Positions 34,357 through 62,728 of a stretch of DNA of 64,000 nt are shown piece by piece. The DNA is from Desulfovibrio sp. JC010 (GTDB lineage: Bacteria; Desulfobacterota; Desulfovibrionia; Desulfovibrionales; Desulfovibrionaceae), in NCBI RefSeq assembly GCF_010470675.1, contig NZ_VOIQ01000010.1:62001-126000 (forward strand), in the 5' to 3' direction. Numbering within the stretch: the stretch's first letter is position 1; every line of letters begins with the position of its first letter. The notes under the pieces are model-generated. The model made no database searches, was not told where the DNA came from, and was given only the letters and a program-made list of their open reading frames with translations. A program made the position numbers and the translations under genes.

Positions 34357-34377
34357 GCCTCCTCCCAAAAACACGAA

Positions 34378-40935: not shown

Positions 40936-40939
40936 CGTT

Positions 40940-42232: not shown

Positions 42233-42240
42233 ATTCCGGA

Positions 42241-43137: not shown

Positions 43138-45102
43138 TTATTTCTTCAAAAATTTCTGATAATAAAGGCAATCAGGTGAACAGACCTGTTCAAATGATCC
43201 GGCATAAAAATGTTCTCTGGCTTCCCTGAAAAGATCATTGTTCCAATTTTCCAGTAATGATCCCGATGACTTGATGGGAATGTAGCGGAATTTCGGCAGA
43301 CTGTTATGACAAAAACAGGCATTAATCGGCGAAGTCATCCGCATCCAGGTAAAAGGCATGGCGCACGGGTAACCTTTCAGTTCAATATCACCGCCTCCCC
43401 ACGCTAATCCGGCGGGCGGGCAGTGCTTTGCCAGCCCGTACTCTTCATAAAGTTCCGGCCTTTCCCGGAGAACCCTCGTTGCAACTTTGCCGATCAGGCA
43501 GTCGAGCCCCAGCCGGGCAGCCCGTTGCACCGCTTCCACTATTGCCGCACACAACCGATGGGCAACATCATCATCGGTCAGATCGACCATCATCGAGTGA
43601 AAGGAGCGTGGGGTGAGAGTCCAGCAGAGCCAGTGAAAAGTAACCCCGCCAGCACCCAGTTCTCCGGCAAGAGAAACAAAATCAGCCATCTCATCGATAT
43701 TATGTCCCATGACAATAAAGCTGAGGGAAAGCGTGGGATGGGTATACCCCAGTTTCTCCCTGCGCTGCGTAAGGGCGGAAAGGTTGCCGACAACTGTTTC
43801 CCAATTGCTTCTGGTCCGGACCAGCTCGTAATTTCCTTTCGTAGCGGCATCCAGCGAGCAGGCCACATGGTACAGACTCTCGGCCATCACATCGATATCC
43901 CGGGACGCCAAGAGCATGTTGGAAGCCAGCGAAATCTTAAGGTCCGGAAACTCCGCCCCTTTTTCCATGAACAGTCTGGTGGTTGGGTGCAAAAGCGGCT
44001 CTCCGCCGCTGAGCGAAAGACTCTTTGTTCCGCCAAGGGTTGCCATTATCTGATGCAGGTGGATGGGTGAAACCGTATAATGTCTTTTGATGTCCGAATA
44101 ATCACAAAAACGGCAGCGTATATTGCAGCGGCTGGTTACCTTCAGCATATAATTCAGCGGCAGCGTTTCCAGCACGCTTTGCTTCGCATCTATCAGGGAA
44201 AGCAGTTTCCGCTCACGCTCTTCGGCCGTATCATCCGGGAGACCGCTGTCATCAAGCCGACTGACAAGTGAATAATCATCCTGTCCGGCCTTTGCCAGCA
44301 ATTCGTCCATTCTGCCAAGTTCTTCATGGCGGGCTTTGACGACCACAATCGCGTGTTTAGTTCCGGGAACCGAAACAACCTCGGCATGCGGACATCCGGC
44401 AACCTCCAGCGTTTGAAAAATATCCTCTTGCGCCATATCCTGTTTATCTGCGCAGAGGATCAAAAGCACGCCGCCCTTTTTCAGTGCGGCACACGCAGTG
44501 AAAAGCTCCTGCCGGGAGGAACCTATGTCCATCAGGGAAAAACTTTTTTTTATGATGATAAAGTCAAAAAATTCCGGCTGCAGCGCCAGATGATCTTCGC
44601 CTCCGGCAACAATTTCCACATTATGAAAAAGCCCTTTCTTGCGCCAGCGTTGTAGCAAATCCTGAGCATGCATGGCGTACTTGCCGTTGGAATCCAAACC
44701 CAGAAGGGAGGCGGGATTCCATCTATGTGCCGCGTACAGCACATCATATCCCCAGTCACAGCCGAGCACCGCTCCCGTCAGTCCTCCGACATGCGACCGC
44801 CCGAGTTTCTGCGCCACATAGGTCATTTTTTTATCCAAAGCTGCAAAGGCACTCACCGAACAATAGCTGGTCAGGCAATTTCGTTCCATGGTCTCGGGAT
44901 CGCCGCCCCGCTTTTCAGTCTGTTCCGCGCTGAGGCTCCGCCTAAACCAGCCATGCAAAATTTCCCGGCCTTCCCGCGCCCAACGAGGCAGAACAGGCAG
45001 ACTGTCACTCATCCCCTCAAGCGCGCGGCGGCATGCGGGAGAGCGGCCTGCCGCAAAAATCGCAATACGGGAAATTATGGGTATACTGGGGCTGTTCAAC
45101 AA
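43138..45102 (-). CDS. Methyltransferase-like/radical SAM fusion with SPASM-like tail (copy 1)
   Basis: 654 residues. I start at TTG 45102: GGAGG stands eight bases before it and the added N-terminus aligns with copy 2; ATG 45012 is the alternative. Residues about 110-260 are Rossmann, motif I AVLGCDWGYDVLYAA. Then CNIRCRFC (326-333), LSLSGGEPLLHP, and a C-terminal cysteine module: CAMPFTW, NACFCHN, LLENWNN and VCSPDCLYYQ. The domain order is methyltransferase-like, radical SAM, SPASM-like. Copies lie at 54508 and 60821. The first domain may carry out a separate methylation or bind SAM. Confidence 0.82.
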   Translation of the reverse strand: MLNSPSIPIISRIAIFAAGRSPACRRALEGMSDSLPVLPRWAREGREILHGWFRRSLSAEQTEKRGGDPETMERNCLTSYCSVSAFAALDKKMTYVAQKLGRSHVGGLTGAVLGCDWGYDVLYAAHRWNPASLLGLDSNGKYAMHAQDLLQRWRKKGLFHNVEIVAGGEDHLALQPEFFDFIIIKKSFSLMDIGSSRQELFTACAALKKGGVLLILCADKQDMAQEDIFQTLEVAGCPHAEVVSVPGTKHAIVVVKARHEELGRMDELLAKAGQDDYSLVSRLDDSGLPDDTAEERERKLLSLIDAKQSVLETLPLNYMLKVTSRCNIRCRFCDYSDIKRHYTVSPIHLHQIMATLGGTKSLSLSGGEPLLHPTTRLFMEKGAEFPDLKISLASNMLLASRDIDVMAESLYHVACSLDAATKGNYELVRTRSNWETVVGNLSALTQRREKLGYTHPTLSLSFIVMGHNIDEMADFVSLAGELGAGGVTFHWLCWTLTPRSFHSMMVDLTDDDVAHRLCAAIVEAVQRAARLGLDCLIGKVATRVLRERPELYEEYGLAKHCPPAGLAWGGGDIELKGYPCAMPFTWMRMTSPINACFCHNSLPKFRYIPIKSSGSLLENWNNDLFREAREHFYAGSFEQVCSPDCLYYQKFLKK

Positions 45103-45171
45103 CGGCAAAACCTCCGAAAAATATAATCGCTACCAAAAACACGCTAAATGCATGCACCACGAAATCAACTC

Positions 45172-46107
45172 TCAATCCACATAATCCAAGATGCTCATTG
45201 TATCCGCGCAAACATCCAGTATGGCGGCTTCTTCTCCACTGCTCAGCCCGCGCCTGCCGCTCCCGATACCATCAGCATGCAGAGGGCGGCGCAATCCGGC
45301 AAGATGGTCATACCGTCCGGCCTGACGCGCGGTGTCATCCGTGCAGTAAAAATCAAGTGCCCCTGAAAGATCCATCTGCAAAAAAGAAGCCAAGCCTTCG
45401 AGAATTTCCCCCGGAAGGGTAACCAGATCTTCATACCGGATATCCATGCTCTGTACGTCCGGTCGGGCGGAGAATTTCAGCCAGCTGGTGACCGTAAAAA
45501 GCCAATCTTCTGCCAAGCGGCGCAGCCCGGAAGAATTATCCCCGTCCTCAGCGCACAACTGAGGCATGAGGTGCTTGAGTGTTGACGGCAGGGAATCCCG
45601 GGGGTCCCGGTGGATCATGACAAACCGGGCCTCTGGCCAAACGCGGGAGTATTCTTCTGCATATGCCGCATCGCCCAGAATCTTGAAGCCCCATGAACCG
45701 GCCTGTTGCAATTCAGCGAGCCTGTTCATGAGCCGATCCGCCAGATACGCGCGGGCGAAAAATTCGCCGGAGAAATTACCTGTTTCCAGCCCCGTGGCTT
45801 CCTCACCCGAAACAAAGTCAACAGGCCCGGTCCACGCCCCCAGATTCATTGGAGTCAGGTCAATCCCGGCGCAGACAGCGTCGTATTCTTCGCCGTTAAG
45901 CCCCAGCGAGGAAAAAATATTCCGGGTATACCTCCCGGAAAGTCCGGTCACAAAGCTCGGCTTGCGCAGATGCAATTCATAACCCTGCACATGTCCGGGA
46001 GCGCAACCGAGCATGGCTGTGAGCAGAGAAGTCCCGGAGCGCGGCCAGCCGCCTATGAGGACCGGAGTACCAGATAGGCTGGCCGGAATCCCACTTTTCG
46101 TTTCCAT
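45172..46107 (-). CDS. Sulfotransferase
   Basis: 311 residues. PSB loop PVLIGGWPRSGTSLL near residues 15-29, and RFVMIHRDPRDSLPS gives the 3'-phosphate-binding Arg and Ser. GGAGG nine bases before the ATG supports this start, although it lies 55 bp inside the GNAT-like gene, a long overlap. Sulfation of a glycan hydroxyl is expected. Different in sequence from the sulfotransferases at 27805 and 56525, so they probably act on different positions. Confidence 0.83.
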   Translation of the reverse strand: METKSGIPASLSGTPVLIGGWPRSGTSLLTAMLGCAPGHVQGYELHLRKPSFVTGLSGRYTRNIFSSLGLNGEEYDAVCAGIDLTPMNLGAWTGPVDFVSGEEATGLETGNFSGEFFARAYLADRLMNRLAELQQAGSWGFKILGDAAYAEEYSRVWPEARFVMIHRDPRDSLPSTLKHLMPQLCAEDGDNSSGLRRLAEDWLFTVTSWLKFSARPDVQSMDIRYEDLVTLPGEILEGLASFLQMDLSGALDFYCTDDTARQAGRYDHLAGLRRPLHADGIGSGRRGLSSGEEAAILDVCADTMSILDYVD

Positions 46108-46868
46108 TTATTGAGTCCTCCTTCAGGGGAAAACGGATTCGCACCGCTGTACCATGGGCCGTAATGCAGTATACCCGGCGGGAGGGAAAGCGTCATGCAG
46201 GCATCAAGAAAACACAGATGCAACAAATGCATGACATCGTATTTACGATGCGCCGCATGAGCCATGATTTCATCATACTGCACATGTTGACCTACCCTTT
46301 TACCCAAAATATACGCAGCGAGAACTCCGTCCGGAGAAAAGGCCCCTATACAAATGTCCTGATACATGGGCTGGGAATAGGGCACATATTCCGGAAAATC
46401 ATGTTCAGGGCCGCGGGCAAGAATCCCACTCTCTATAGGCCGCCCCTGCCGGACGGATGCGGACTGCACCACTTCCCAGATGCCTTCGGCATGTTCGGCA
46501 GGGTTGATGCGGCGGCAGATATACCCTTCTTTTTCAGCCTTTACACCTCGAAGACGATACCGGGTTTTTCTGTCAACCCCGGCAAGATAGGTTTGCACAT
46601 CCACTGGTGGGCGTAAAATAGCCGAGAGCAAAATACGATCCGAAGCCCCGGGAACATCAAGATATTCGGAATGTCGCTGCGCCGGATACGGTGCCCCCTT
46701 CCACGCAATCCAGTTGTCTGCTTTTTCCCGGCAGCGGGGATCATCTGTCTCCGGCGGTGACAATGCGATAACCTCAGGTTTGCCGTACAAGGCCAGATCA
46801 TCTTCAGTTAATTTCTGGAAACGTTGGGGCTTTTTTTTAAAACGGGAAAACAAACGGTTCCAGATCAT
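46053..46868 (-). CDS. FemAB/GNAT-like acyltransferase
   Basis: 271 residues. The second half looks GNAT-like: IGAFSPDGVLAAYILGKRV, a beta-bulge region, then HYGPWYSGANPFSPEGGLNKWKRK, which resembles the substrate-end motif of FemAB relatives. The first half, with LAGVDRKTRYRLRGVKAEKEG, is like the first GNAT half. GGAGGG lies before the ATG, which overlaps the previous stop by four bases. Likely transfers an acyl or aminoacyl group to an amino sugar exposed by nearby deacetylases. Weaker match than the gene at 38302. Confidence 0.65.
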   Translation of the reverse strand: MIWNRLFSRFKKKPQRFQKLTEDDLALYGKPEVIALSPPETDDPRCREKADNWIAWKGAPYPAQRHSEYLDVPGASDRILLSAILRPPVDVQTYLAGVDRKTRYRLRGVKAEKEGYICRRINPAEHAEGIWEVVQSASVRQGRPIESGILARGPEHDFPEYVPYSQPMYQDICIGAFSPDGVLAAYILGKRVGQHVQYDEIMAHAAHRKYDVMHLLHLCFLDACMTLSLPPGILHYGPWYSGANPFSPEGGLNKWKRKVGFRPAYLVLRSS

Positions 46869-47842
46869 GGAGCACCCTCCACATAATGCTGTGGATGCAG
46901 CAGAAAAAGAAGAGGCACCGAAGGCAGCACCTTGACGAGCCCATCCAGCCCAGCACTAAAAAAATCCAGATTCCGGGTCCCGGTAAATGGAGGCTCCAGC
47001 ATACCACCGCCTTTCAGCGGAACCAGCTCACGGGCCGCAGTACAGGTCAACGCCCCCGGAGGCTGATGATCGGCCAGTTTCAAATGCTTCATGGAATCAG
47101 GCTGCAGGGTCACACTCAAAGTCCCGCTCTTGGCAAGCCCGTTGTCAGATATATAGTTAGTTACCATGAAACCGTTTTTCCGGGTCCATAGCGGCTGGTC
47201 GATCCAGGTGTCAAAATTCAAAGACTCCAGGCTGATCCGGTTCCTGCGGATGGACTCTGCAAGCTCGGGATGCACATTGGAAAGCTTCGGAAAATCAGGC
47301 TGCCGCCCCAGTTCCGCAAAAAAATCAAAGGCCGTCCCGAAGCCATTCTCATCCAATCCCTTATAACGGGAATTTCCGTGAATGCTGCCCGTGACAGGCT
47401 TAATTCCATTGGCGGAAAAAACCGAGAGCATTTCCCGGAGGATATCTTCCAATGAGCATTCCTGTCCGGAGATGAGATAATGCGGATCCAGATGCACACC
47501 TGTTTCATGTCCCATGCCCTCCAGCTCGCGCATGGCCGTTAACTGCTCTTGCGGCGACAGTCTGCCCAGATTGGCAGGATGGTCCGGAGCAAGAAAAAGG
47601 AAGGCCGCAGGCAGTGAACGTTTAGCCAGCTCACGCCCGAAACAGATCAGCTCTTTCGGTCCGACGGCATGCACATCACAACGCAGCAGGACAAAGGGGG
47701 AGGCCTCACCCCTTGCTTTCCTGTCCAGAGAGCGGGATAAGATAAATTCGGCCCGTTCATCCCGCAATTGTTCCAGCAGAAAAAACAACCGCTCCGCTCT
47801 TTGGTTCAAGCGGGAAAAACATCGCAAAAATTTCTTTAACAT
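46865..47842 (-). CDS. NodB-fold (polysaccharide deacetylase-like) protein
   Basis: 325 residues. I start at MLKKFLRCF (47842), whose ATG overlaps the stop of the upstream gene (ATGTTAA); the frame runs on to 48094 inside that gene, but that part is a shadow. VLLRCDVHAVG carries the Asp motif with the second Asp replaced (DVH), ETGVHLDPHYLI gives a His-x3-His site, and SIHGNSRYKG fits a later loop. Metal chemistry is plausible but non-standard. Four-base overlap with the downstream GNAT-like gene. Confidence 0.72.
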   Translation of the reverse strand: MLKKFLRCFSRLNQRAERLFFLLEQLRDERAEFILSRSLDRKARGEASPFVLLRCDVHAVGPKELICFGRELAKRSLPAAFLFLAPDHPANLGRLSPQEQLTAMRELEGMGHETGVHLDPHYLISGQECSLEDILREMLSVFSANGIKPVTGSIHGNSRYKGLDENGFGTAFDFFAELGRQPDFPKLSNVHPELAESIRRNRISLESLNFDTWIDQPLWTRKNGFMVTNYISDNGLAKSGTLSVTLQPDSMKHLKLADHQPPGALTCTAARELVPLKGGGMLEPPFTGTRNLDFFSAGLDGLVKVLPSVPLLFLLHPQHYVEGAP

Positions 47843-50166
47843 AATCTCGCCGTCATTGCGTAGTAAGGAAAAAAGGACCGCTTGGGGCGACGCCATGAAA
47901 AAGGTGATCCTCCCGGCAAAAAACGGACATTGCCGAACCCGGCTTTTTGCAACATGGTGCGCAACCGGACCGGGGAAACATAATCCAGATCGGAAAGCTG
48001 TCGCCGCCCCAGCTTGCGGGCAACCATATCCCCAGCTGTTCTGGGCAGCCAATGCACGAAGGGCAACTTGGTAAACGGCTCGCGGAAAAACCACGGGTTA
48101 AACTGGTAAAAGCAGACCGCTCCGCCGGGCACAAGACTTTTGCGAATATTTTCAATGGCTGCCCGCTGACGCTCGCGCCCTACGATATAACAAAAAGTAT
48201 TGTTGAGGATTACAGCATCATATTCCCTTTCGCCGGGTGCATCCTCCACATAATCCAACTGCCGGAAAGAAAGAAACCGGTTCAATTCGGGATGTGTTTC
48301 CAGCAATGCGTCACCCAGTTTCAAAAAACGTGGATTAATGTCAAATCCGGTCACCCGCGCTCCACTCACCCGGTGCAGGCCGAGAGCACAAAATCCAAAA
48401 CCGCAGCCAAGCTCCGCCACATGATGCCCGGACGACAACCGAAGCCCTCCGACAAGCATGCGGGTTCGCCCCGTTAGCATTTCAGTATTCACGCGCAATG
48501 TTCCGGCTGCCTGCTCCCGCGTCATACCCTGAGCCTCGAAATCCTGAACAATCAGCCGCTCAATGGTCGGAAAAAAACGCTGCAGCCGATCCTCTTCATG
48601 CATTACCTGCCCCTTGCCTGTTTTACGATCCACCTCAAACCTTACAGCTCCCTCCGGGATAGAAAAATTTTTGCTCCCGACGCGGTCAGAAAATCTTATT
48701 GCAGCAGCGTGGCTCAGCGGCCGCTCGAACTCCAGCACGATTCGATCACCGTCATGGCTGACCCGGCTGCTCGCTTTTAAGGTTGCGTTCCATTGGCAGA
48801 CAGTGCCGAGCGGTGCCTTCCAGACGGAACCAAAATCCAATTCACCCAGCAGTTCCGCCAACTGCGGCAGGTGGATATCAGGGTGATTCATGACCACACA
48901 GTGCGCTCCTTCCCGCAAACGGGTCGGAAGATAACGCAGCAGCAGCTCCAGGTTATGCGCCTCCGGCTTCATGCCGGTATCCAGACTGCTGTGAACACCG
49001 GGAACCATAATTCCAGAGGCTCGCGGCACCCCGCTCCCCAGATTAAACCCGCAGTGGGGCAATTTGTTGTCCTTGCCCAGCAATTCTCCGTAACCGAATC
49101 CGTTTTCCTCTCCCCATGCATAATGGGTCGCACCCAGGTATCCTACACCTCCGCGCCCCCCATGCGTCGTAAAACCGGACACAGGCTCGCCCATGATATT
49201 TTCAAGACGTTGCTTCTCTTCACCCAGCCCCACCGCTGAAGAGGCCTCGGTGTGCAGCGCAATTTCATGCCCGCGCTCCCGAAGCAGAGATATAAGTCCG
49301 GCCTTGGCCGTCCGGGTCAGGAAAAAGAACGATGCCCGCAGTTTCAGCTCGTCATAGGTTTGTAAAATGGACGCAAGATCATCCGCACCGACCGGCCTGT
49401 CCATATCATGACGAACAGAAAAAGCAGCAGTATATCCTTCAGGCCAGTCATGAGCGCGCAGTACAGGACATCCCGCCTCTGAAAAAAGACGCTCAGCCTG
49501 ATCCATGAGCCAGCCTTCCAGCTTCCATGTGGGACGGTTGACTTCCATGGAGTAGTACCCCGTATCTCCCAGTGGAGGCAGGCTGTGCTGGTACACGGAT
49601 ATATCAAAAAAAGGAAATCCTAGAACAAGCCGCACTCCGTCCGTCACGGCGACGATGCCTTTTTTGCCGTCCGGGGTCACCCCGTGCAACAACGGTTTCC
49701 ATCTCTCATCGGGCTGGAAAAACTTCACGGAGAATTCACCCCGGCACCAACGTGAATCTTGGGGACTAAATGAGAACGGGTCTGAATAATCCTTACCTTT
49801 GGCAGGAATCTTACGCACTTTGCAGCTGGAATAACCGCAACCGATGTTAAGCTCCTCCAGAAAAATATCTGCCGCGCTGGTTTCAATGCATTTCACATCC
49901 AAAGCCGCACAGACACTCGCGTCCAACGGAGCTTCAATAACTAAAGGAGAGTTCTCCCATTCTGACCGCCACACCGTATTACGCCCCAGAAAACCATACG
50001 CAGCCCCCCGAAGATCGCCATAAAAAGGGTCAACCCCCAACAGTCCATGCTTCCTGACCACCAGATCGAACGCGCCGCTCAGATACCATGCGTTTTCATG
50101 CTCCTGAAGGCGCAAAATTTCCTGCCGGGACGGCAGAATGAGAGCCGGGACAGAGTTTGCCGTCAT
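47836..50166 (-). CDS. NodB-like deacetylase fused to a SAM methyltransferase
   Basis: 776 residues, with AGGAGG nine bases before the ATG. An N-terminal region of about 240 residues is of unknown type. The NodB-like part (about 245-500) shows FSVRHDMDRPV (Asp motif), ASFFFLT, and HEIALHTEASS, where the His-x3-His site is incomplete. A class-I methyltransferase follows from about 590: VAELGCGFGFCALGLHRV, then YDAVILNNTFCYIVG and LVPGGAVCFYQF. I know no characterised enzyme with this pairing. It could deacetylate and methylate the same residue. Coupled by ATGA overlap to the upstream GT4 gene. Confidence 0.78.
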   Translation of the reverse strand: MTANSVPALILPSRQEILRLQEHENAWYLSGAFDLVVRKHGLLGVDPFYGDLRGAAYGFLGRNTVWRSEWENSPLVIEAPLDASVCAALDVKCIETSAADIFLEELNIGCGYSSCKVRKIPAKGKDYSDPFSFSPQDSRWCRGEFSVKFFQPDERWKPLLHGVTPDGKKGIVAVTDGVRLVLGFPFFDISVYQHSLPPLGDTGYYSMEVNRPTWKLEGWLMDQAERLFSEAGCPVLRAHDWPEGYTAAFSVRHDMDRPVGADDLASILQTYDELKLRASFFFLTRTAKAGLISLLRERGHEIALHTEASSAVGLGEEKQRLENIMGEPVSGFTTHGGRGGVGYLGATHYAWGEENGFGYGELLGKDNKLPHCGFNLGSGVPRASGIMVPGVHSSLDTGMKPEAHNLELLLRYLPTRLREGAHCVVMNHPDIHLPQLAELLGELDFGSVWKAPLGTVCQWNATLKASSRVSHDGDRIVLEFERPLSHAAAIRFSDRVGSKNFSIPEGAVRFEVDRKTGKGQVMHEEDRLQRFFPTIERLIVQDFEAQGMTREQAAGTLRVNTEMLTGRTRMLVGGLRLSSGHHVAELGCGFGFCALGLHRVSGARVTGFDINPRFLKLGDALLETHPELNRFLSFRQLDYVEDAPGEREYDAVILNNTFCYIVGRERQRAAIENIRKSLVPGGAVCFYQFNPWFFREPFTKLPFVHWLPRTAGDMVARKLGRRQLSDLDYVSPVRLRTMLQKAGFGNVRFLPGGSPFSWRRPKRSFFPYYAMTARLC

Positions 50167-51893: not shown

Positions 51894-54488
51894 ATGCATA
51901 ATGAACGCTCATGGGAAGAGGTTCAGACAGAACTTGCCGACCAGTCAGGAGAATCGGGAATTCTTGCACGGTCCAAAGCATACAAACCATATTTTCTGCG
52001 CTTCGGACGGGGGGTGCGCATTGAGGAAGGCTGCCGTTTTTCCCACCCCGGACGCATCGTTCTGGACGACGATACCCGCATCAATCAGGGCGCGCTCATT
52101 TACGGAAGCGGCGGCATCCGCCTGGGGCGGCATTGCCGAATCGGGCCGAGGACCTTCATCCACAGTGCCAACCATGACATTTCTCCCTCTGCAGAAGCCT
52201 TCTTTGAAAGGGGATATGAATACGAGCGGGTTGAAATCGGCGACAACTGCCTGATTTCCGCCAACGTTTCCATACTGCCCGGCGCGCGTCTCGGGGCAGG
52301 CTGCTTTGTCTCCTGCGGAGGGGTCGTACCCAGAGGGCTTTACGAACAGAACTCCTTCCTGACAGGGGTTCCGGCCAGACCCCGTCCCCGCCCCACTCCG
52401 GAATGGCATGAAGCACCCGCCATAGCCGTCATCGCCGCCCCTGAAAGCCGCGAAGCAGAAGCCGCCCGCCTGCTCGTCACCTCGCTGGGGTTGCCGCAGG
52501 TCCGGGTTTTCGCCCCGGACAGCCCAATACCCGACTCCGTCCATGCCACACTCCGGCTGGACGGCAGCGAAGCTGAAGACGACCAGTGGAGCATATCCTT
52601 GCCTGGCCGTATTCTGGACGGCGACGCCCGGTTGACCCATCCATTTTCCATGGCGGACACGCCCCTGCCGTCCACGGGACAGCACCTTGTCTACCCGGCG
52701 ATTCCCGAAAACACCGCCCCGGAAACGCGGGCAGCGATCCTGAGCCTGCGGGCAGTGCTCAAACGCGCGGAAAAAGGCACGGCAAACGCTCCCGAGGAAC
52801 TGCTTATACTCCTTTGGGCCTTTGCCAGACAACACTCCACTTCTCTGGAACCGTTTCTGGACCGCCTTGCGGCACCGCACGGGCTGGACACACAGCCGAC
52901 CACAAACAGCCTGATCCGGAAAATACTGGACAAAGCGTATGGAGAAAAAAGACTCAAACGGACGCTTTTAACCACTCTCACCGCTGCAGGATTTCCCGGC
53001 GGCGCAAGCGTAGCGGCCCGGATTTGCAAAAAATATTTTTCCAGCAGCCATGAAATTGTTTTCGCCTTATGCCTGCGCTGCCGCACCCTGCTCCGGGCAG
53101 TCTGGAAAGAGCGGGCACAGCGGCTGTTGAAAACTCCCGTTCCGCCGGTCCTCGGCCTGTACGGGCTTGCGGCTGTTATGCATGGGGAAACCGAAATCCA
53201 CCAGCAGATCCTGTCCCGGCTGCTGAGCGAAGATATGTATGATGCGGAGACCGGCCTTATCCGCAACCGCAGCAACAGCGCATCCTATTGTTATTCTCCC
53301 GTGTTGAGCGGCTTTCTGGCCTTGACCGCTGATCAGGATATCATAGCTGATCGACTCTGCTCCACAACTGTCCGTTCCCGAAGCTGGCTGGTTTATGAAG
53401 ATGCTGATTCAGACTGGAAAATCTCCACGGAACACGGAACCGGAGCTTACGTATCACCTGACAGACGCCAGATCTCCAGCTCCCTGCTGACAAACTGGCT
53501 TGACTCGCTGACTGTCCCCGATCTTGAGGACGGCAGTTATGAACTCAACGAAAACAATTATTCCCCGAACGCGCTTATACTTGAACAATGCTGGCTGGCC
53601 CTGTTCCGAACCATGGCAGCCGAATCCGGAATCACCCTTGCGCGAATCCTTCCATGGCCGCAGGGGTACGAGAACGCCTTAAGCATCACCTTTGATGTGG
53701 ACCGCAACACTTCCGTAGAACAGGCACGGAGCCTGCTTGACTGCCAACGCGAGCACTATAACAGCGCATGTGCAAGCTGGTATTTCATTTCAGAAGCTGA
53801 GCACAGTTCCGGAATTCCCGAATTCGTACGCAACAACATGCAGGAGTCGGGCGTTCACGCCCTTGGCCGCCGGAACGAAACACAGGGCTGCGGCGTAACC
53901 TTCCACTCCGGCCTGCGTTCGGATTATTGGGAAGGAACCAGAAGCATTGAATGGCTGGAGCGCGATAACGCCCTGTACGGTGAAATTCTCTCCAGTCAGA
54001 TCGGGATTCCGCGTCCGACTCTGATCGACCACGGTAACACCTGCCGGGTGACGGATGTTTGGCTCCTGCCCATACGATTTCCGTTGGAGGGGGCCACTTC
54101 GGATAATTCTTTGGACTATTTTGACCGTCTGGGGCCACGATTTGAGGAGCTGCTCCGTCTTGGAGGGCATGCCATTATCTGCACCCACCCGGATCTGCGG
54201 CACGGTTTGCTCGCCTCCCTTGCCGAGCGACTGGACATGCGCGCCCTGTGGCGGGTGCCTGTGGAGGCAGCTGTGGAGCGTTGCCGCCGCCTGCTTTCCT
54301 ACGGCGCAATCTCGACAGCAGAAACAAAAGACGGCGGGTTCGCGCTGGTCAGCCGCTACACCATAGCCGATGTACAGGTAGAGTTATTTGCTCCCGGAGC
54401 TAAAAAGAGCCGCCGCATCTGCATTCAGATGAACAGCGGTTTTCCACGCGAGGTGGAGTCGTGTCGACAAGTTGAGCAAAACACATGA
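51894..54488 (+). CDS. Hexapeptide acyltransferase fused to a NodB-like domain
   Basis: 864 residues from the ATG with GGAG six bases upstream; an in-frame TTG at 51852 is the alternative. Residues about 35-165 are left-handed beta-helix repeats (IRLGRHCRIGPRTFIHSANH, VEIGDNCLISANVSILPG), the maa/NodL type of O-acetyltransferase. A long helical middle of unknown type runs to about 585. The last 280 residues are NodB-like: ITFDVDRNTS, VTFHSGLRSDYW, IDHGNT and CTHPDLRH. No known protein joins adding and removing acyl groups in this way, to my knowledge. 19 bases upstream of MT/radical-SAM copy 2. Confidence 0.78.
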   Translation: MHNERSWEEVQTELADQSGESGILARSKAYKPYFLRFGRGVRIEEGCRFSHPGRIVLDDDTRINQGALIYGSGGIRLGRHCRIGPRTFIHSANHDISPSAEAFFERGYEYERVEIGDNCLISANVSILPGARLGAGCFVSCGGVVPRGLYEQNSFLTGVPARPRPRPTPEWHEAPAIAVIAAPESREAEAARLLVTSLGLPQVRVFAPDSPIPDSVHATLRLDGSEAEDDQWSISLPGRILDGDARLTHPFSMADTPLPSTGQHLVYPAIPENTAPETRAAILSLRAVLKRAEKGTANAPEELLILLWAFARQHSTSLEPFLDRLAAPHGLDTQPTTNSLIRKILDKAYGEKRLKRTLLTTLTAAGFPGGASVAARICKKYFSSSHEIVFALCLRCRTLLRAVWKERAQRLLKTPVPPVLGLYGLAAVMHGETEIHQQILSRLLSEDMYDAETGLIRNRSNSASYCYSPVLSGFLALTADQDIIADRLCSTTVRSRSWLVYEDADSDWKISTEHGTGAYVSPDRRQISSSLLTNWLDSLTVPDLEDGSYELNENNYSPNALILEQCWLALFRTMAAESGITLARILPWPQGYENALSITFDVDRNTSVEQARSLLDCQREHYNSACASWYFISEAEHSSGIPEFVRNNMQESGVHALGRRNETQGCGVTFHSGLRSDYWEGTRSIEWLERDNALYGEILSSQIGIPRPTLIDHGNTCRVTDVWLLPIRFPLEGATSDNSLDYFDRLGPRFEELLRLGGHAIICTHPDLRHGLLASLAERLDMRALWRVPVEAAVERCRRLLSYGAISTAETKDGGFALVSRYTIADVQVELFAPGAKKSRRICIQMNSGFPREVESCRQVEQNT

Positions 54489-54507
54489 TCTCAAAACAAA
54501 GGTTTCA

Positions 54508-56451
54508 ATGATTACTGAAACACTACACAAGATAATCTCCATGGCAGTAGCCCAGATTCGCTGCATTGGACCCGACGCAGACTGGGTGCGAGACGCAGTA
54601 GACGCCATGCGCCAGTGGAACAACCACGAACTCCGTAGACAAACCGAAAAATACCGGGGACAAAAAGACGAAGACAGCCATATCCGCTCCTTTTGTTCTC
54701 CCAAAGCCTTTGCCGCTTTTGACCATATAGCATCAACTGCGTCCAAAGCCACAAAAGACGGAGGCTCCATAAAAGGAAAACGGGTTCTGATTCTAGGTTC
54801 AAGCTGGGGCCTTAGACCCATGTACCTGAACAGGGCCCGGAAACCGGAACACATGTTGGCTCTGTGCTTTCACGGACAGTTTTTCCCTGTGGGGAAAAAG
54901 ATATTGGAACGCTACTCACAAAGATTTACAAACCTGCACATTGCAAAAGCGGGCCTCTCAATCCTTGAGCGTAACGAACCGTTTCACATCGGTATAGTTA
55001 CGGCAAGCATGCCCTTTCACGATACTGAAGATGCCCGCATGGAATTAATGCGTATAAGCGAAAGCATACTGCCCGGCGGCGTACTCGCGTTTACGAATTT
55101 GAACACTCTGGAAGGCATGTCCTATACAGACCTGTCCGCGACTTTGGAGGCTTTCGGGTTTCGCGCCGTGGCAGTTAAGCATTCTTACCTGCAACTTTTT
55201 AGAAAAGACGCCCCTGTACAGACTGCAACAGCGCAGGAAGCCCTGACTATGACCGGGCAGGATATCGACACTCGCATATCCAGAATAAAAACAACTGAAA
55301 AAAAAAGGAAAGAGTCGGTAGAAGAACGAAAGGCAAAAATTGCACGGCATATCCAATCAGCTGAAACAAAACTTTCCACACTTCCAGCTTCATATCTGCT
55401 CAATGTTTCATCGATATGCAATCTCAAATGCATCTTCTGCGGCTACCCGGACAAATTGCGGCATCATGCTATCTCCGAAACTTTGCTGCATCAGGTTATA
55501 AACGGCATTGGCGGTACAGCGGCAATAACCCTGACAGGCGGCGAACCCCTGCTGAACTCGATGGCATGGAAAATAATAAATACAGCTGCCGACTACCCGG
55601 ATTTAAACTTGTCAGTAACCAGCAATTTGAATCTCCGAAATCTGGATGTGGCAAAAATTGCACACGGCTGTTCCCATATCAATAACTCCATTGACGCAGC
55701 CTCTGCTGAAACATACAGCATAATGAGACAAGGCGGAGACTGGAATCTCCTTAACGAAAACCTGTCACTTATAGAGCAATACAAAAAAGAAAATAACCAG
55801 CAGCATCCAGAACTGCAGATTAACTTTATCGTCACCGGCCACAACTATTCTGAACTCAGCGCATTTGTTGATTTCGCAGCTGGACACGGCATCAAGACCG
55901 TCGATTTCAAATGGCTGCTCTGGCAGGATACCCCCAGAATAACGGATCAGGCCCGCGTTAGGATTGATGATATGGAAGTAATGGCAACCTTGTGCCGGGA
56001 AATGAAGCTGGCAGATGAACTGGCCTCGCGGAACGGCATACGTATAGGATGGGAAAAAGTACCTTTTGCCATAAAAAAGTTCACGCCCGGTCTGTATGAA
56101 AAATTTGAACTGGATAAATTGAAATCTTATACAGATATGATGAGCGGAAGAACATCCGACAATCAGAAACTGCTGCAAACCATGCCTGACGGCTGCATGC
56201 CGTGCATTGCACCATTTTCCCGCTTACAAATATCATCTCCCCCGTATGCAAGTTTCTGCTGCCATGCAAAACCCGAATTTACATACATACCGATTGATAC
56301 AAAAAAATCCATACTTGATGTTTGGAACTCGCGGCAATTTCAAAAGGCACGCCGTCTATTCCTTGAGGAAAAATATTCCGAGGTCTGCCATCCGGAATGC
56401 AGGCTTTATCAGATTTATCTGAAAACCCATAAAGCGAAGGGTAGAAATTGA
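54508..56451 (+). CDS. Methyltransferase-like/radical SAM fusion with SPASM-like tail (copy 2)
   Basis: 647 residues from the ATG of MITETLHKII, with AAGG five bases upstream. Same order as copy 1. The Rossmann part keeps RVLILGSSWGLRPMYL, but the usual acidic residues of motif I/II are gone, so its methyltransferase activity is doubtful. CNLKCIFC at 304-311 and ITLTGGEPLLNS are intact. The tail has CIAPFSR, ASFCCHAKPEF, ILDVWNSRQF and VCHPECRLYQ, aligning with copy 1. A coiled-coil-like Lys/Glu stretch links the two halves. Shares an operon with the hexapeptide/NodB fusion. Confidence 0.82.
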   Translation: MITETLHKIISMAVAQIRCIGPDADWVRDAVDAMRQWNNHELRRQTEKYRGQKDEDSHIRSFCSPKAFAAFDHIASTASKATKDGGSIKGKRVLILGSSWGLRPMYLNRARKPEHMLALCFHGQFFPVGKKILERYSQRFTNLHIAKAGLSILERNEPFHIGIVTASMPFHDTEDARMELMRISESILPGGVLAFTNLNTLEGMSYTDLSATLEAFGFRAVAVKHSYLQLFRKDAPVQTATAQEALTMTGQDIDTRISRIKTTEKKRKESVEERKAKIARHIQSAETKLSTLPASYLLNVSSICNLKCIFCGYPDKLRHHAISETLLHQVINGIGGTAAITLTGGEPLLNSMAWKIINTAADYPDLNLSVTSNLNLRNLDVAKIAHGCSHINNSIDAASAETYSIMRQGGDWNLLNENLSLIEQYKKENNQQHPELQINFIVTGHNYSELSAFVDFAAGHGIKTVDFKWLLWQDTPRITDQARVRIDDMEVMATLCREMKLADELASRNGIRIGWEKVPFAIKKFTPGLYEKFELDKLKSYTDMMSGRTSDNQKLLQTMPDGCMPCIAPFSRLQISSPPYASFCCHAKPEFTYIPIDTKKSILDVWNSRQFQKARRLFLEEKYSEVCHPECRLYQIYLKTHKAKGRN

Positions 56452-56524: not shown

Positions 56525-57397
56525 TTACCGGATATTTGCGTTTTCATAAATATCCAGATCATCAGCAAAAACATCGCTCAGTATCTGGCGCAACTCATTG
56601 TCATAGAACTCGCTGTAATACGGAAAAGACTTGAAGACTGCCCCCTGTTTGTAGGCCAACAATTCACTGAACGGGATATCGGCAAAACACTCCTTTCCCG
56701 CCTGTCGGACATGTTCTCCTTCAGGAACGGTTACGGAATTATAAGTCGGTTCGTGTCGGAAGCCGTATTTCTTATTCAATGAATGTAGATATTCATTCAT
56801 ACGTTCCAGACGAACCACATCATCGACCCCGCCCCGCTCCCAGCAGGACAAAGTGGATTGCCGCCGCCAGATTGAAGCCATATTGTCAAAGTCAACCTGC
56901 TGTAAAAAGTGCATAAACTGACGAAAAGTGAGATTTTTTTCCGTCACATCTGGCCCCAGAACCGTGGAAAGATTCTTTAATTGCGCCTCGCTTGGATAAT
57001 TCACCGTATGCAGATAGCTGCTCACGGCTCTGTCAAAGGGATCGCGGACAACAACAAACTTGTGCAGACTATCCCAATTTTTTTCCAATCCCTGTTCAAG
57101 CTCTTCACGGTGGGTATCCACCCAATCTTTTCTAAAAGCTGCCACAGAAACGCCACGCAGCCGATATCCCATATTGGCGAAAAACCACATCGTCACAGAT
57201 GTGCTGCCGCACCGAGGCCTGAAAAAAGCTGCAAAGCCTTTTTCAGAATTCAACACCCAGTCAAGCATGGCCCCGCGCTGGGCAGGCGGAGAAAAAGGAT
57301 AATTCTCAGGCGTAACCCACGTCTCATGCCGGCTGGCTATTTTTTCCCGCACCCGATTCAGACAACGCAGGGGAAACTTCAAAATATCATTACTCAT
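56525..57397 (-). CDS. Sulfotransferase (Sulfotransfer_2-like)
   Basis: 290 residues. AFFRPRCGSTSVTMWFF (near residues 35-51) is the PSB loop, and FVVVRDPFDRAVSSYLH is the 3'-phosphate motif, both clean. This family normally sulfates carbohydrate chains. GAGG ten bases before the ATG; the start overlaps the upstream stop by eight bases (57390-57397). It ends 73 bp tail-to-tail from MT/radical-SAM copy 2. Third sulfotransferase of the window. Confidence 0.85.
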   Translation of the reverse strand: MSNDILKFPLRCLNRVREKIASRHETWVTPENYPFSPPAQRGAMLDWVLNSEKGFAAFFRPRCGSTSVTMWFFANMGYRLRGVSVAAFRKDWVDTHREELEQGLEKNWDSLHKFVVVRDPFDRAVSSYLHTVNYPSEAQLKNLSTVLGPDVTEKNLTFRQFMHFLQQVDFDNMASIWRRQSTLSCWERGGVDDVVRLERMNEYLHSLNKKYGFRHEPTYNSVTVPEGEHVRQAGKECFADIPFSELLAYKQGAVFKSFPYYSEFYDNELRQILSDVFADDLDIYENANIR

Positions 57398-59606
57398 GAA
57401 TGTTAAACCTCATTTGTGAACAGGCGGGAAAATCAAACCAGACCATTATGCTGCCGCGTTTCACCGGTCTGGTCGAGAGAGTCGCGTCCGGTGATGTAAC
57501 GGAAGCGGCCCGGATTAAAAAACTGCACCCGGGAATGGATTTGCCGCCCCGGTTTTCCAAAGTAAAAGAATTATGATCCAAAGCTGTTATTTCCAAAAAT
57601 GCCAATTTCAACCAGTAACCCATGAGAGTGTCAACAGTGGTGATAAGCAACTCCCCCTTATCGGCCTGAACACGCATAAAGCGAAGCACTTTGTCAAAAG
57701 ATTTGGAGATAGTATAAAATCCGTTATTACAGTCAAGATATCCAAAATCCTGCCCTTCCTTTTCAATATACGGGTAATAGGACCTATGGATACTCACCCC
57801 GTATTCCCTGATCAGCCGCCGGATCGAGGACGAAGTGTAATAACGCCCGGGACATGAGCAGGAGGCCCATGTGATGGACTCGCCATCCGGCAGAGGAGAT
57901 TTCCAGTACAGGGGCGTGGGTGTGTAGGTTCCACTTTCATTGTGCAGCAGGTTGATCTCATGCCGCTCCATAGGTGCAAAATCTTCTGACGAATCCTGCC
58001 AGAAAAATTTAATGCCGCAACTCCTCCAAGTCGGCACCATATAATATTCCGAAGATGGGTCCGTACCTTTTGCACCAACGCATACAGGGCATTTATGCGC
58101 ACCGTGATCTATCCAGACCGGACTGCCGTATCTGTCCGCAATTTCCTTTAAAGCCCGTTGATTATCACTCGCCGAAGAATGCCCGGGGGAACTGGTATGC
58201 AGGCAAATATCATGCCCCAACCCGCGAAGGTCATCCAAAAACAAGCGGAAAGCCTCATTATCGGCATAGGCAACCATCGGCTCAGTATATTCCGCCGAGC
58301 CGGATGAACCTCCGTGCAGACAAGGTTGACCGGTCGGATTGTTGTAAAAAACGCTTTTGGTGACCACATGACCCTGACCGACAAATCCACCGGCGGCATG
58401 CGCCGGAGACTCGACATCCTCCGCACCGTAATAAACCGCCCGCTGGGACTTCATAAGCGCAGTATCGGCATGCTCGGTCCAGACATGGCTTGCGCTGTAC
58501 CGTCCGGGAGTATGCATAATCCTCGGCGGGGATACCTGATTAGGCCCCACAAACAAACGAAACGTATAGCTGTGTTCTTCACCGGCACGCCGATACGGTG
58601 CTGATTTATCCTTGGAGAGGAGAAAACGGCCGCGCCCCCTGCTGACCAGACGATGCCGCTGGCCCATGAAATTTTCCGCATGCAGCACCAGCGCATGTTG
58701 TCGGCTCTCACCGACACAGCCGCGATACTCCACCATGGACATGTCCGTATTGCGCAAACAGGTCCATTTAGCCGATTTTCCGGCAAACCGGGCCCCTTCT
58801 TTCCAAAGCCAAAAATCACATTTCGAATCTTTGGCCCCCGGCTTAAGCATATCCCCGTTCTTGAGATACAATTCCTCAGGGGGACAGGACGTAAGCAATG
58901 CCAGCCGCATATGGTCCAGAAGTATTGACCGCGTATGCCGCACAGTCATGCGGCAGGTCAGGCTGTGCCCCGTTGTGTCCGGAATAAAAACCAGCCGCAG
59001 TTCAAGATCATCATAGGAACGTTCCACAACCAGAGTCTCAATGCCGTCTTCCTGCTCAAGACGGACAAGCTGATTCCGCCAGCGAACCTGCTGGTTCAGT
59101 TCTTTAAACACTGACGGCGATATTTTCAGACTTTGTATATAACCGGGAAGATCACGATCAATAACAATGACAGATTCCGCTTCATGCAATTCTTTGATGC
59201 GCACGGGCACGTAAAACGAGGACCTGGTGGAACGTCCGTACACCGGCATGTATACCCGAACACAGTCCCCGACACTCAAACCCTGCACAGTATTCAGATG
59301 CAGAATCGGCCCTTTGCATTCTTCCACGCAGTCATACACGCGGCACTGCTTGTATGAGAACTGCATATCATCAATAAGCCGTTCCATTTCAGGAGTAAGC
59401 AGCTGCACGCAATCCCCGGAGAATTCCAGAAAATAATCAGCAACCCCAAGCCGGACTTTCTCTTCGCCGTCATTTTGCTTAACGGGGGGAATCACAGCAT
59501 CAAGGTCATCGGCAAAAGGAAACTTCAACGAACGCGGGACAAGCCCCAAACGACGCCTGACAGCCTTTCTAAGCATAAAGAAATAATACATTACGGTGTA
59601 ACGCAT
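57390..59606 (-). CDS. Large protein with NodB-like C-terminal part, unknown function
   Basis: 738 residues. The N-terminal 350 residues are beta-rich, with no motif I know. From about 440, PMVAYADNEAFRLFLDDL and LGHDICLHTSSPGHSS resemble the metal-site region of the NodB-like proteins at 47836 and 46865, with a His-x5-His spacing, and IDHGAHKCP and WYKSPL-like loops follow. AGGA lies four to five bases before the first ATG; Met6 or Met11 could serve instead. Its 16-bp overlap with the methyltransferase gene upstream implies coupling. Function inferred only from neighbour likeness. Confidence 0.55.
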   Translation of the reverse strand: MRYTVMYYFFMLRKAVRRRLGLVPRSLKFPFADDLDAVIPPVKQNDGEEKVRLGVADYFLEFSGDCVQLLTPEMERLIDDMQFSYKQCRVYDCVEECKGPILHLNTVQGLSVGDCVRVYMPVYGRSTRSSFYVPVRIKELHEAESVIVIDRDLPGYIQSLKISPSVFKELNQQVRWRNQLVRLEQEDGIETLVVERSYDDLELRLVFIPDTTGHSLTCRMTVRHTRSILLDHMRLALLTSCPPEELYLKNGDMLKPGAKDSKCDFWLWKEGARFAGKSAKWTCLRNTDMSMVEYRGCVGESRQHALVLHAENFMGQRHRLVSRGRGRFLLSKDKSAPYRRAGEEHSYTFRLFVGPNQVSPPRIMHTPGRYSASHVWTEHADTALMKSQRAVYYGAEDVESPAHAAGGFVGQGHVVTKSVFYNNPTGQPCLHGGSSGSAEYTEPMVAYADNEAFRLFLDDLRGLGHDICLHTSSPGHSSASDNQRALKEIADRYGSPVWIDHGAHKCPVCVGAKGTDPSSEYYMVPTWRSCGIKFFWQDSSEDFAPMERHEINLLHNESGTYTPTPLYWKSPLPDGESITWASCSCPGRYYTSSSIRRLIREYGVSIHRSYYPYIEKEGQDFGYLDCNNGFYTISKSFDKVLRFMRVQADKGELLITTVDTLMGYWLKLAFLEITALDHNSFTLENRGGKSIPGCSFLIRAASVTSPDATLSTRPVKRGSIMVWFDFPACSQMRFNIHE

Positions 59607-60802
59607 ACAGTCCTCAACAGCTCCTTAATCAAGGACATCACCGGATGCGTCAACTTCCGGCCGTCACGTGCTGCCACAGCCAGCAAAATGAAATGTTTTG
59701 CTGTGTCAAAAGAAATTCGTTTACCGCTGACCGGATTAAAATATGTAGGCGACCCCACTGTCTTTTCCAAAAGTGCATTGAACTCATCTGCGCTGAACTG
59801 CTCCGCTCTATCTGAACCGCTCATCCCCGAAGGCCGCTCTTCCACCACTATGATGCCGTCCGGGCTCAACATGGAGGCTGCCGTGTGCAGAACCTGTTCG
59901 ACCTGCTCCCTGTCGCAGAGCAGCAGACTGCCCCAGAAAGTGATGCAGTCATAAGTCCCGCCCAGCTCGCTCAAATCCTCCATTCGCCCCTGCTCAAATC
60001 TCAAGTGGTCTTCCAGCCCGCAAGCCGGGGCAAGCCAGCGGTTGCCCGTGACCACCCGGTTCTCCATTATATCCGTAACTGTGACGTCATGCCCGCGCTC
60101 AGCCAGAGCCGCCCCCAGAAAACCAAATCCTCCCCCCACGTCAAGCAAACGTATCCGGCGTGAACCGAAAGCCGCCCGGAAGACAACATCCATGAGGAAA
60201 GCGTTGAGCAGCACCCGCTTCAGGTTATTACAAAAAACAAGCTCCGCGGAATGGGCATAATCTTCATCTGGGTCCGAAAACAGATTACCGCTCTCCAGCA
60301 TGCTGTTTCTGAATCCGGCAAAATCATTTGCCAAACCATACACCCTTCCCGGAAGCTTACGCAAATCTTCCTCAAGGCCCTCACCTTTTCGGGTCAACCG
60401 CCAAAAAGACCGGGCACCGGGAGCTCTCTCGACCCGACAGGACGGAAGCCAACGGCACAATCTCCACAAGACAAGCCGCCGCTCCATGGATGACGGCCAG
60501 CAACCCAGCGAAACGAAAATTTCGGAACCATCTCCCATGTCGAGTAGCTTCTGACCGAAATAAGCAGCAACACCCGCATCATTGGGCAAGGGAACAGCGG
60601 ACTCGAAAAAACAGGCAACCTTACACTTCGAAGAAAGCGGAGCACACAAATTGGCATCCCCGCCTGCAATCGGAGTCATGCTCCTCCCCGCATGGGAAAA
60701 CCAGACAATGGAATCCGCCGGGACCTCCTTTCCGCACAATTGGGAAAGACGTCCCCGCAAATGTGCCCGGTCAGCCTGAGGATGGTGATAGAGAGCGATC
60801 AT
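59591..60802 (-). CDS. SAM-dependent methyltransferase with unknown N-terminal domain
   Basis: 403 residues, AGGAAG six to seven bases before the ATG. The C-terminal half is class I: IRLLDVGGGFGFLGAALAERG (motif I), VTDIMENR (acidic motif II), YDCITFWGSLLLCD and LSPDGIIVVEE. The N-terminal 180 residues (RRLVLWRLCRWLPSCRVERA and others) are not recognised. A similar plan, unknown N-terminus plus C-terminal methyltransferase, is seen at 29585. It lies 18 bp after MT/radical-SAM copy 3. Confidence 0.8.
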   Translation of the reverse strand: MIALYHHPQADRAHLRGRLSQLCGKEVPADSIVWFSHAGRSMTPIAGGDANLCAPLSSKCKVACFFESAVPLPNDAGVAAYFGQKLLDMGDGSEIFVSLGCWPSSMERRLVLWRLCRWLPSCRVERAPGARSFWRLTRKGEGLEEDLRKLPGRVYGLANDFAGFRNSMLESGNLFSDPDEDYAHSAELVFCNNLKRVLLNAFLMDVVFRAAFGSRRIRLLDVGGGFGFLGAALAERGHDVTVTDIMENRVVTGNRWLAPACGLEDHLRFEQGRMEDLSELGGTYDCITFWGSLLLCDREQVEQVLHTAASMLSPDGIIVVEERPSGMSGSDRAEQFSADEFNALLEKTVGSPTYFNPVSGKRISFDTAKHFILLAVAARDGRKLTHPVMSLIKELLRTVCVTP

Positions 60803-60820: not shown

Positions 60821-62728
60821 CTATACATCAACCATGCAGCAGGCTGTCGTGTTTTCCGGCGTCACCTTATCCAGATCCGGGTACGCAATGTAGATATCCA
60901 CACTGGCATTATCCTGTATGACTATTCCCGTATCATTAACTGCTTCATGGGCGCGGGCGAGGTGTTCCAAAGCTGTCCGGCCCAGTTCACGGGACGACCT
61001 GACATCATCTTCCGGGGAAACCCCCATTTCTTTGTATTCATAATAATTCATTATTTGCAAAACAACTTTATCTGCTCCTGATTCAGCGGCAAGTCTGACA
61101 AAATCCGAGACTTCACTCATGTTTTCCCGCTGCATGCAGAATGTCCAATCTATCTGGGGAAGCTCTGACCTACGTTTAGACGCAAGGGCAGATGTAACGC
61201 CGATAATTTTTGTTAAATCACTACCTTTTCTGATATTGCTGTGTGTTTGCGAAGTAGCCGCGTCAACAGAAAAAGAAATCACACCGAACTGTTCAAGTAT
61301 CCTGTCGATCCAGTACGGGCTGTTTATCAAATTCCCGTTGGTGGAAGCCCGTAACTTTAACTGCGGATACCTGGCAGCCTCATCACACAGCCGCTTCATG
61401 GCAGGAAAAAGGAAAGGTTCCCCGCCTGTCAGGCACAGGTAGGTCAGATAAGGCATGGCCTTTATCACTGCCTCCAACGCGTGATCGGTATAACGAAAAC
61501 GGGGCTTCAGGATTAGAGAACACATGCGGCACTCCAGATTGCAGGCGTTGCCAAGAGAAAAAGTCAGAAGCAAAGGATAGGTCCCGGAAGGCAGTTTGCC
61601 CGTTTTCATTCCCTGCCTCAGACGAAGAATGTTTTCCCTGAACAAAGGAGTACATCGGTCAAGCTCCTCATCCGAATAGCGCAACGGAGCATAAAAGTCA
61701 TACCGTGACTTCAATGATGTCTCCCGCCCTGCCAAATGGTTTTTGTACATTGGGCAAACGGAGGAGCAAACTCTGGCTGCCTGTCCGGAAACCATCAACT
61801 GCCGGGCATAATCCAATTTCTGCGATGCAAGAATATCAGCGATATCCATTTCCGCGCCGGGAAAATAGTAAGTCTGGTAAAATTCCTTCCGCGCCCAGCA
61901 GCATGCCTGATATGTTTGATGGTACAGTATCAGGTTCGTCCAAAAGTAAGTACAAAACGGATACTCCGTCCCAGTATTCTTATCGACATCAATACACTCA
62001 GGACGCAATTTCGGCTGCGGTTTGCCGATAATACCGTGCAGCATTTCACCATGGACAACTTCGACCGACTTCACACCGAAAGCTGAAAGCACTGAAATCC
62101 GACGCTCCTTTTCTTCGGAAGAACTGTTTGCAGGAAGAAGCCAGAACACGTGGCTTCCCGGCTTCCCTATGCGCAATCCGTTCCACAACACATCCTGATA
62201 ATACTCCGTATCCTTAAAACGGAAATGCGCGTCGATAAGAACCATGTCCGCTGATCCGGGCGGACGGTCACACCATCGGTCATCGGTATACAGAGACAAG
62301 CGGTCGAATCCGGGCGTGTTCGGAAACTTAACCTTGATTTTCGCTGCAGCTGCGATGAATCCGCACATAATATCCGTCGCAACAAGGGAAGCAGGTTGCC
62401 AGTGAGTGGCAAAATGCAGGCTGGTAAAACCCCATGCACACCCCATATGCAAAATGTTCAAATCATGAAAATCATTACGTCCCATGCGCGAAAGGATTCC
62501 CTTGAGACGCGCGTCAAACTTCCAAAAGCCCCGCTTGCCGAGAAAATTCTTCACACAATGGCTGACCGCAGGCTCCTGAAGAGCGGATTCGGCATCAGGA
62601 GCCGAACTTCCCCCGTAACTGATAAAACGCTCAGCAACCGTCACGGCGGCAGCGTCCTTCCATGGCCGGCTTGCCCGCAAGGAGGATAAGGGTGGAATTT
62701 TTTGAAACATTCCGCTCAACAAACTCAT
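60821..62728 (-). CDS. Methyltransferase-like/SPASM-like/radical SAM protein with permuted order (copy 3)
   Basis: 635 residues, AGGAG seven bases before the ATG. A Rossmann part (about 90-240) has ILHMGCAWGFTSLHFA and an acidic VATDIM, so it may bind SAM. A cysteine module follows at about 258-330: ACCWARKEF, DILASQKLDYARQL and VCSSVCPMYK. Only then comes the radical-SAM core with CNLECRMC at 396-403 and LCLTGGEPFLFP. The chain ends TACCMVDV (Cys630-631), where a normal SPASM region would begin. Copies 1 and 2 have the cysteine module at the C-terminus, so the order here is different. First gene of its - strand run. Confidence 0.82.
   Translation of the reverse strand: MSLLSGMFQKIPPLSSLRASRPWKDAAAVTVAERFISYGGSSAPDAESALQEPAVSHCVKNFLGKRGFWKFDARLKGILSRMGRNDFHDLNILHMGCAWGFTSLHFATHWQPASLVATDIMCGFIAAAAKIKVKFPNTPGFDRLSLYTDDRWCDRPPGSADMVLIDAHFRFKDTEYYQDVLWNGLRIGKPGSHVFWLLPANSSSEEKERRISVLSAFGVKSVEVVHGEMLHGIIGKPQPKLRPECIDVDKNTGTEYPFCTYFWTNLILYHQTYQACCWARKEFYQTYYFPGAEMDIADILASQKLDYARQLMVSGQAARVCSSVCPMYKNHLAGRETSLKSRYDFYAPLRYSDEELDRCTPLFRENILRLRQGMKTGKLPSGTYPLLLTFSLGNACNLECRMCSLILKPRFRYTDHALEAVIKAMPYLTYLCLTGGEPFLFPAMKRLCDEAARYPQLKLRASTNGNLINSPYWIDRILEQFGVISFSVDAATSQTHSNIRKGSDLTKIIGVTSALASKRRSELPQIDWTFCMQRENMSEVSDFVRLAAESGADKVVLQIMNYYEYKEMGVSPEDDVRSSRELGRTALEHLARAHEAVNDTGIVIQDNASVDIYIAYPDLDKVTPENTTACCMVDV

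Follow-up and report, generated by a model that had tools for sequence, protein, structure and literature searches.

A radical-SAM fusion with a twitch-type cysteine module ahead of its core in a surface-polysaccharide cluster of Desulfovibrio sp. JC010

The SPASM or twitch module of radical-SAM enzymes is treated as a C-terminal extension in passages of a review (PMC9012708), though a curated N-terminal-twitch family exists. Must this module be C-terminal, and what would its place mean for the position of the auxiliary cluster? A natural pair for these questions lies in one gene cluster of Desulfovibrio sp. JC010, where both orders occur behind the same head domain. The cluster falls within the window analysed here, a 64,000-nucleotide stretch of contig NZ_VOIQ01000010.1. 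Three fusion genes have a Rossmann domain, a radical-SAM core and a cysteine module in common. In copy 1 (43138-45108, minus strand) and copy 2 (54472-56451, plus strand) the module follows the core, with tails at 43144-43374 and 56200-56415, respectively. Profiles and BLASTP place these domains in copy 1; in copy 2 they are placed by profiles, a structure model and a Pfam SPASM score of 21.2 bits (cut-off 21.5). A standalone radical-SAM/SPASM protein of classic order (37126-38292, minus strand), with PF04055 and PF13186 both over cut-off, served as a control. In copy 3 the initial annotation had put the module between the Rossmann part and the core. Is this order real, is it new, and how might it have arisen?

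Domain order in copy 3

Copy 3 is an intact frame of 635 aa at 60821-62728 on the minus strand, according to an ORF check and domain profiles. Along the chain run a Rossmann domain (aa 52-226, 62051-62575), a twitch or half-SPASM cysteine module (aa 256-333, 61730-61963) and a radical-SAM core (aa 381-576, 61001-61588), after which the protein ends. Pfam Radical_SAM (PF04055) matches aa 391-546 with 40.7 bits against a cut-off of 29.5. The CxxxCxxC of the catalytic cluster (C396-x3-C400-x2-C403; aa 396-403, 61520-61543) is invariant in alignment A2. The module cysteines are C259, C276, C277, C321 and C325, in the pattern C-x16-CC-x43-C-x3-C. Since a full two-cluster SPASM has seven cysteines and this module has five, one-cluster twitch would be the fitting term.

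Pfam SPASM (PF13186) gives no match to copy 3 at E 1 or better, and the twitch assignment rests on our own profiles and on the NCBIfam family NF033640. Three module profiles were built: one from nine N-terminal twitch segments taken from other genomes, one from 16 classic C-terminal tails, and one from just the copy 1 and copy 2 tails. The classic set holds 16 of 27 distinct tails, omitting five rows of the window's own copies, L001, L008, L031, L037 and two phage frames. The N-twitch profile scores 29.4 bits on aa 256-333, and the copy 1/2-tail profile 13.2 bits on aa 271-333. Neither score was reached by any of 1000 free or 1000 cysteine-fixed shuffles (hmmsearch listed 990-999 of each set). 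The classic-tail profile barely sees the module, with 2.2 bits in the whole protein and 8.4 bits in the segment; the latter value was reached by no free and 6 cysteine-fixed shuffles (1000 each). The copy 1 tail is likewise weak under this profile: N-twitch and classic-tail scores are 17.2 and 5.8 bits for copy 1, 31.2 and 28.9 for copy 2, and 29.4 and 2.2 for copy 3. BLASTP without composition correction also aligns copy 3 aa 276-332 with copy 2 aa 596-650 (E 1.8e-5). The segment at about 258-330, said by the initial annotation to correspond to the tails of copies 1 and 2, does match them. The HMM search of segments that it had proposed places module and core as it had described. The module-before-core order is thus confirmed, in an intact gene.

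The head domain ties the three copies together. BLASTP of the Rossmann parts gives 65.9 bits for copies 1 and 2, 49.7 for copies 1 and 3, and 21.6 (E 0.015) for copies 2 and 3, with 22% identity between copies 1 and 3 over copy 3 aa 52-225. The cores of all three are linked by BLASTP without composition correction, that of copy 3 being 30% identical to copy 1 and 28% to copy 2. The copy 3 Rossmann domain looks like a class-I methyltransferase domain below Pfam cut-offs: Methyltransf_25 reaches 16.6 bits on the whole protein and 18.5 on the domain alone (cut-off 27), and no Pfam methyltransferase cut-off is attained. The domain carries HMGCAWG and ATD, which may correspond to the methyltransferase glycine motif and the acid after strand 2. 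A profile of all three Rossmann parts found weak methyltransferase matches in the PDB, the best at E 8.6e-4 over 48 positions. In copy 2 the acid is absent (LALCFHG, as against LGLDSNG in copy 1 and VATDIMC in copy 3), and Pfam has no match to its Rossmann part (54472-55296). This part of copy 2 may have given up SAM binding.

A structure model of copy 3, from an alignment with six N-twitch rows besides copy 3 itself, has pLDDT above 90 for most of the core. The Rossmann part shows alternating helices and strands at moderate confidence (block means 62-84 for aa 71-220). The model carries no confidence at aa ∼226-345; the twitch, which lies there, falls below 50, as does the C-terminal stretch (aa 608-635, 60824-60907) that ends in CCMVDV. 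The model of copy 2 is good in the core and SPASM and poor in the Rossmann part.

Could copy 3 nonetheless be what is left of a tandem radical-SAM protein in which the first core and the second tail were lost? The initial annotation had raised this, noting a CC pair where a tail would start. The pair is there (C630-C631), at roughly that place. As a tail remnant, it appears to carry no weight, with no statistical support: when the last 80 residues are aligned with the copy 1 and copy 2 tails, their shuffles do as well, 1331, 1942, 1629 and 920 of 2000 reaching the real score in four comparisons. None of 201 core-bearing ORFs, collected as described below, has modules on both sides of its core, and L153 and L163, N-twitch proteins that also carry a domain in front, likewise end soon after the core. 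The shuffle test and the lack of a two-module protein among these ORFs led us to reject a tandem origin, which we consider very improbable.

A frameshift or assembly error could instead hide a C-terminal SPASM, leaving the internal module as a chance match. Nothing in favour of this came to light. The intact frame speaks against such an error, as does the methyltransferase gene (59591-60802), which lies 18 bases beyond the stop. With the module profiles, a six-frame scan of the window found no module after the copy 3 core in any frame. The N-twitch profile exceeded 8 bits in four frames: the module inside copy 3, and the tails of copies 1 and 2 and of the 37126-38292 protein. A further match, of 12.6 bits with the classic-tail profile, falls in a frame of 50 aa (39899-40048, plus strand) inside a gene on the opposite strand and is taken as chance. 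Chance is a poor account of the copy 3 module, given the shuffle results and the colinear match to NF033640. A hidden tail was rejected on this assembly, and the sequencing error considered by the initial annotation is hardly credible.

Recurrence of the module-first order

The best NCBIfam family for copy 3 is NF033640 (N_Twi_rSAM, twitch domain-containing radical SAM protein). In a whole-genome search, it matched two stretches in one frame: profile positions 4-129 (37.9 bits), then 160-324 (43.4 bits). The match stops there, leaving the profile end (about 325-398) unmatched. The first 70 positions also match behind the core in copy 2 and in the 37126-38292 protein, which shows, without reliance on the initial annotation, the front part of the profile to be a SPASM-type module, standing in front of the core in copy 3. 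With 81.6 bits in total against a curated cut-off of 170, copy 3 cannot be filed as a member; it is outside the family by cut-off and, judged by domain layout, of the same kind. Seven N-twitch relatives, cut to module and core except for L142 (whole), were scanned as well. NF033640 was the best family for all of them, always below cut-off (77-146 bits), so copy 3 sits within a broad fringe of this family rather than alone.

No sampled genome of the order (0/297) exceeds the NF033640 cut-off. In the phylum, 2 of 297 sampled genomes do, and 8 of 297 have matches at E 1e-25 or better. The two ORFs over the cut-off (L204, L205) show the module and then a CxxxCxxC core. In a further protein (L210), PF13186 at aa 169-229 (48.1 bits, cut-off 21.5) precedes PF04055 at aa 279-438. 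The order is therefore not new: a catalogued family describes it, and it recurs in other bacteria.

To gauge this recurrence, we used the 201 core-bearing ORFs, a biased sample picked for resemblance to copy 3, N-twitch proteins or radical-SAM models. The module stands before the core in 27 and after it in 129; the rest have no clear module. Copy 3 (L009) is among the 27, L054 and L119 are the same gene, and L072 is a weak call at 9.9 bits. Homologues of the same order, which the initial annotation had suggested looking for, thus number 25 besides copy 3 when the doubled gene is counted once: 8 from six named records and 17 from further genomes. They span the source genome's own class and five named phyla, the named records being from Spirochaetia, Lachnospiraceae (two), Gastranaerophilales, Phycisphaerales and Bacteriovoracaceae. 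On the Bacteriovoracaceae contig (L154), three N-twitch radical-SAM genes are neighbours, and the core tree separates the cores of two of them from the other N-twitch enzymes. Because of these two cores, the module-first order may have arisen more than once. Closer to the source, two genomes of its family have N-twitch modules inside long frames of 1970 and 795 aa (L114, L115).

The whole of copy 3 had no close relative in a genome-contig scan with the full protein or in a viral-contig search with alignment A4. Among the matches listed for the 297 sampled genomes of the order, module and core were covered in two besides its own (G218, G090). At E 1e-5 or better the Rossmann domain was found in 2 of these 297, source included, the other match being weak (27 bits). 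What is unusual here is that a single methyltransferase-like head is common to the three copies while their cluster contains both module orders. Mobile elements carry related sequences: copy 3 has matches in 5 of 50,697 phage records, none covering more than 38% of the protein; the N-twitch relative L053 matches two Vibrio phage records across both its module and its core (76% of the query); and the relative L025 matches 6 of 72,556 plasmid records, one over 98% of the query. In Campylobacter phage CP220 (L082), four annotated radical-SAM genes stand together with a possible amidinotransferase gene and one for a nucleotide-diphospho-sugar transferase domain. Phrase searches of a limited literature collection for radical-SAM proteins whose twitch or SPASM is N-terminal returned no paper, which is no proof of an unpublished arrangement.

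Permutation or separate fusion

How did two orders come to share one head domain? In a natural permutation, the tail of a gene like copies 1 and 2 would have moved ahead of the core, leaving three genes of one lineage with two orders. The common N-terminal domain, with its single weak match outside among the sampled order genomes, fits such an event, as does the match of the copy 3 module to the copy 1/2-tail profile. We compared cores in a tree of 79 sequences: copies 1-3, the 37126-38292 protein, 25 other N-twitch rows and 50 classic rows, the N-twitch and classic rows being chosen by score from the 27 and 129 ORFs. Copy 3 fell on an unsupported fork, and the best tree has no clade of copies 1, 2 and 3. 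Forcing that clade costs 2.7 log units and is unrejected by the AU test (p 0.45); forcing the N-twitch rows, minus two of L154, into one clade costs 2.3 log units (AU p 0.42). Against a permutation, the copy 3 core does at least as well with classic enzymes of other genomes (up to 78.4 bits) as with copies 1 and 2 (67.3 and 59.3 bits), and the same class already contains ready-made N-twitch enzymes. Permutation is a serious alternative that we nevertheless consider unlikely.

We lean toward a separate fusion, in which a ready-made N-twitch enzyme was joined to the shared Rossmann domain, as more likely than an on-the-spot permutation of copy 1 or 2. Our reasons are the presence of N-twitch enzymes in the class and the much closer fit of the copy 3 module to the N-twitch than to the classic-tail profile. 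The copy 1 tail also leans toward the N-twitch profile, less strongly than the copy 3 module. The fuller evolutionary claim, that the three genes are paralogous fusions from one ancestor and that the module of copy 3 moved from behind the core to before it by permutation between neighbouring genes, is doubtful. If true, it would give a permutation pair that allows a direct comparison of how the position of the auxiliary cluster affects radical chemistry. The initial annotation had proposed that the order of copy 3 would put this cluster on the far side of the active site; a permutation would usually leave a module's place in the fold unchanged.

Genomic setting, proposed function and known systems

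Copy 3 is the first gene in a tightly packed run of four on the minus strand. It is followed by the methyltransferase gene (Methyltransf_25, 46.7 bits), by a gene for a 738-aa protein (57390-59606) and by a sulfotransferase gene (56525-57397). Around this run lies a surface-polysaccharide cluster that encodes glycosyltransferases, methyltransferases, a polysaccharide deacetylase, a second sulfotransferase and two formyltransferase-domain proteins. The presence of two sulfotransferase genes (45172-46107 and 56525-57397) beside the radical-SAM fusions hints at a sulfated surface glycan. The gene content is reminiscent of a sulfate-reducing deltaproteobacterium. Five cluster proteins have no Pfam match at E 0.001 (57390-59606, 46865-48094, 46053-46868, 40940-42259 and 39331-40965). 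Those at 46865-48094 and 40940-42259 contain a CDVDA/CDVHA-like stretch that is, to our eyes, reminiscent of polysaccharide deacetylases. In an 818-aa protein (31918-34374), a long N-terminal part without assignment precedes a formyltransferase domain (aa 647-739).

In this setting, copy 3 could also be a degenerate, non-catalytic paralogue kept for binding or regulation. Its divergence, and the failure of the searches made to find a close whole-protein relative, would suit such a role. We regard it as improbable: CxxxCxxC, GGEP and the module cysteines are all kept, and the gene leads its packed run. The reading that we prefer, and think somewhat more likely than not, is that copy 3 is an intact glycan-modifying enzyme, a class-I methyltransferase-like Rossmann domain fused to an N-terminal-twitch radical-SAM protein, the likelier origin being a separate fusion.

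The core cluster of radical-SAM enzymes cleaves SAM, and the resulting 5′-deoxyadenosyl radical takes a hydrogen from the substrate. The copy 3 core would do likewise, its radical taking hydrogen from a carbohydrate of the cluster's surface glycan. The twitch would bind one auxiliary [4Fe-4S] cluster through four of its five cysteines. This auxiliary cluster could accept an electron or anchor the substrate, as proposed for BtrN and MoaA in passages of the review cited above. Those passages describe auxiliary clusters as proposed electron acceptors; BtrN as a twitch enzyme for the oxidation of an aminocyclitol, in which no electron transfer to the auxiliary cluster was directly seen; and the MoaA auxiliary cluster as having an open iron site, studied for contact with GTP (PMC9012708). 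The Rossmann domain would bind SAM or the glycan, and may methylate, which is a guess. The glycan setting and the nearest solved sequence, the cytosylglucuronate decarboxylase BlsE (E 4.2e-6), make an oxidation, decarboxylation or other sugar change the likeliest reaction.

The best fold matches of copy 3 are SuiB, NifB, viperin, BlsE and SkfB (VIA-align, mainly residues 345-615). SkfB, SuiB, BlsE and MoaA have the core fold of copy 3 and a SPASM/twitch-type cysteine module too; BtrN is likened to its twitch type from passages of the literature rather than from a fold comparison. In all five, the module is described in the reviewed passages as a C-terminal extension (PMC9012708), whereas it is N-terminal in copy 3. 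L210, L153 and L163 resemble copy 3 in having another or unassigned domain, then the twitch, then the core. They differ from it in that they have no match to a methyltransferase catalytic domain, L163 having a sub-cut-off match to Methyltransf_14, a C-terminal domain. Beyond its unmatched profile end and its score (81.6 of 170 bits), copy 3 differs from members of NF033640 in the extra Rossmann domain in front, and shares with them a twitch followed by the core in one chain.
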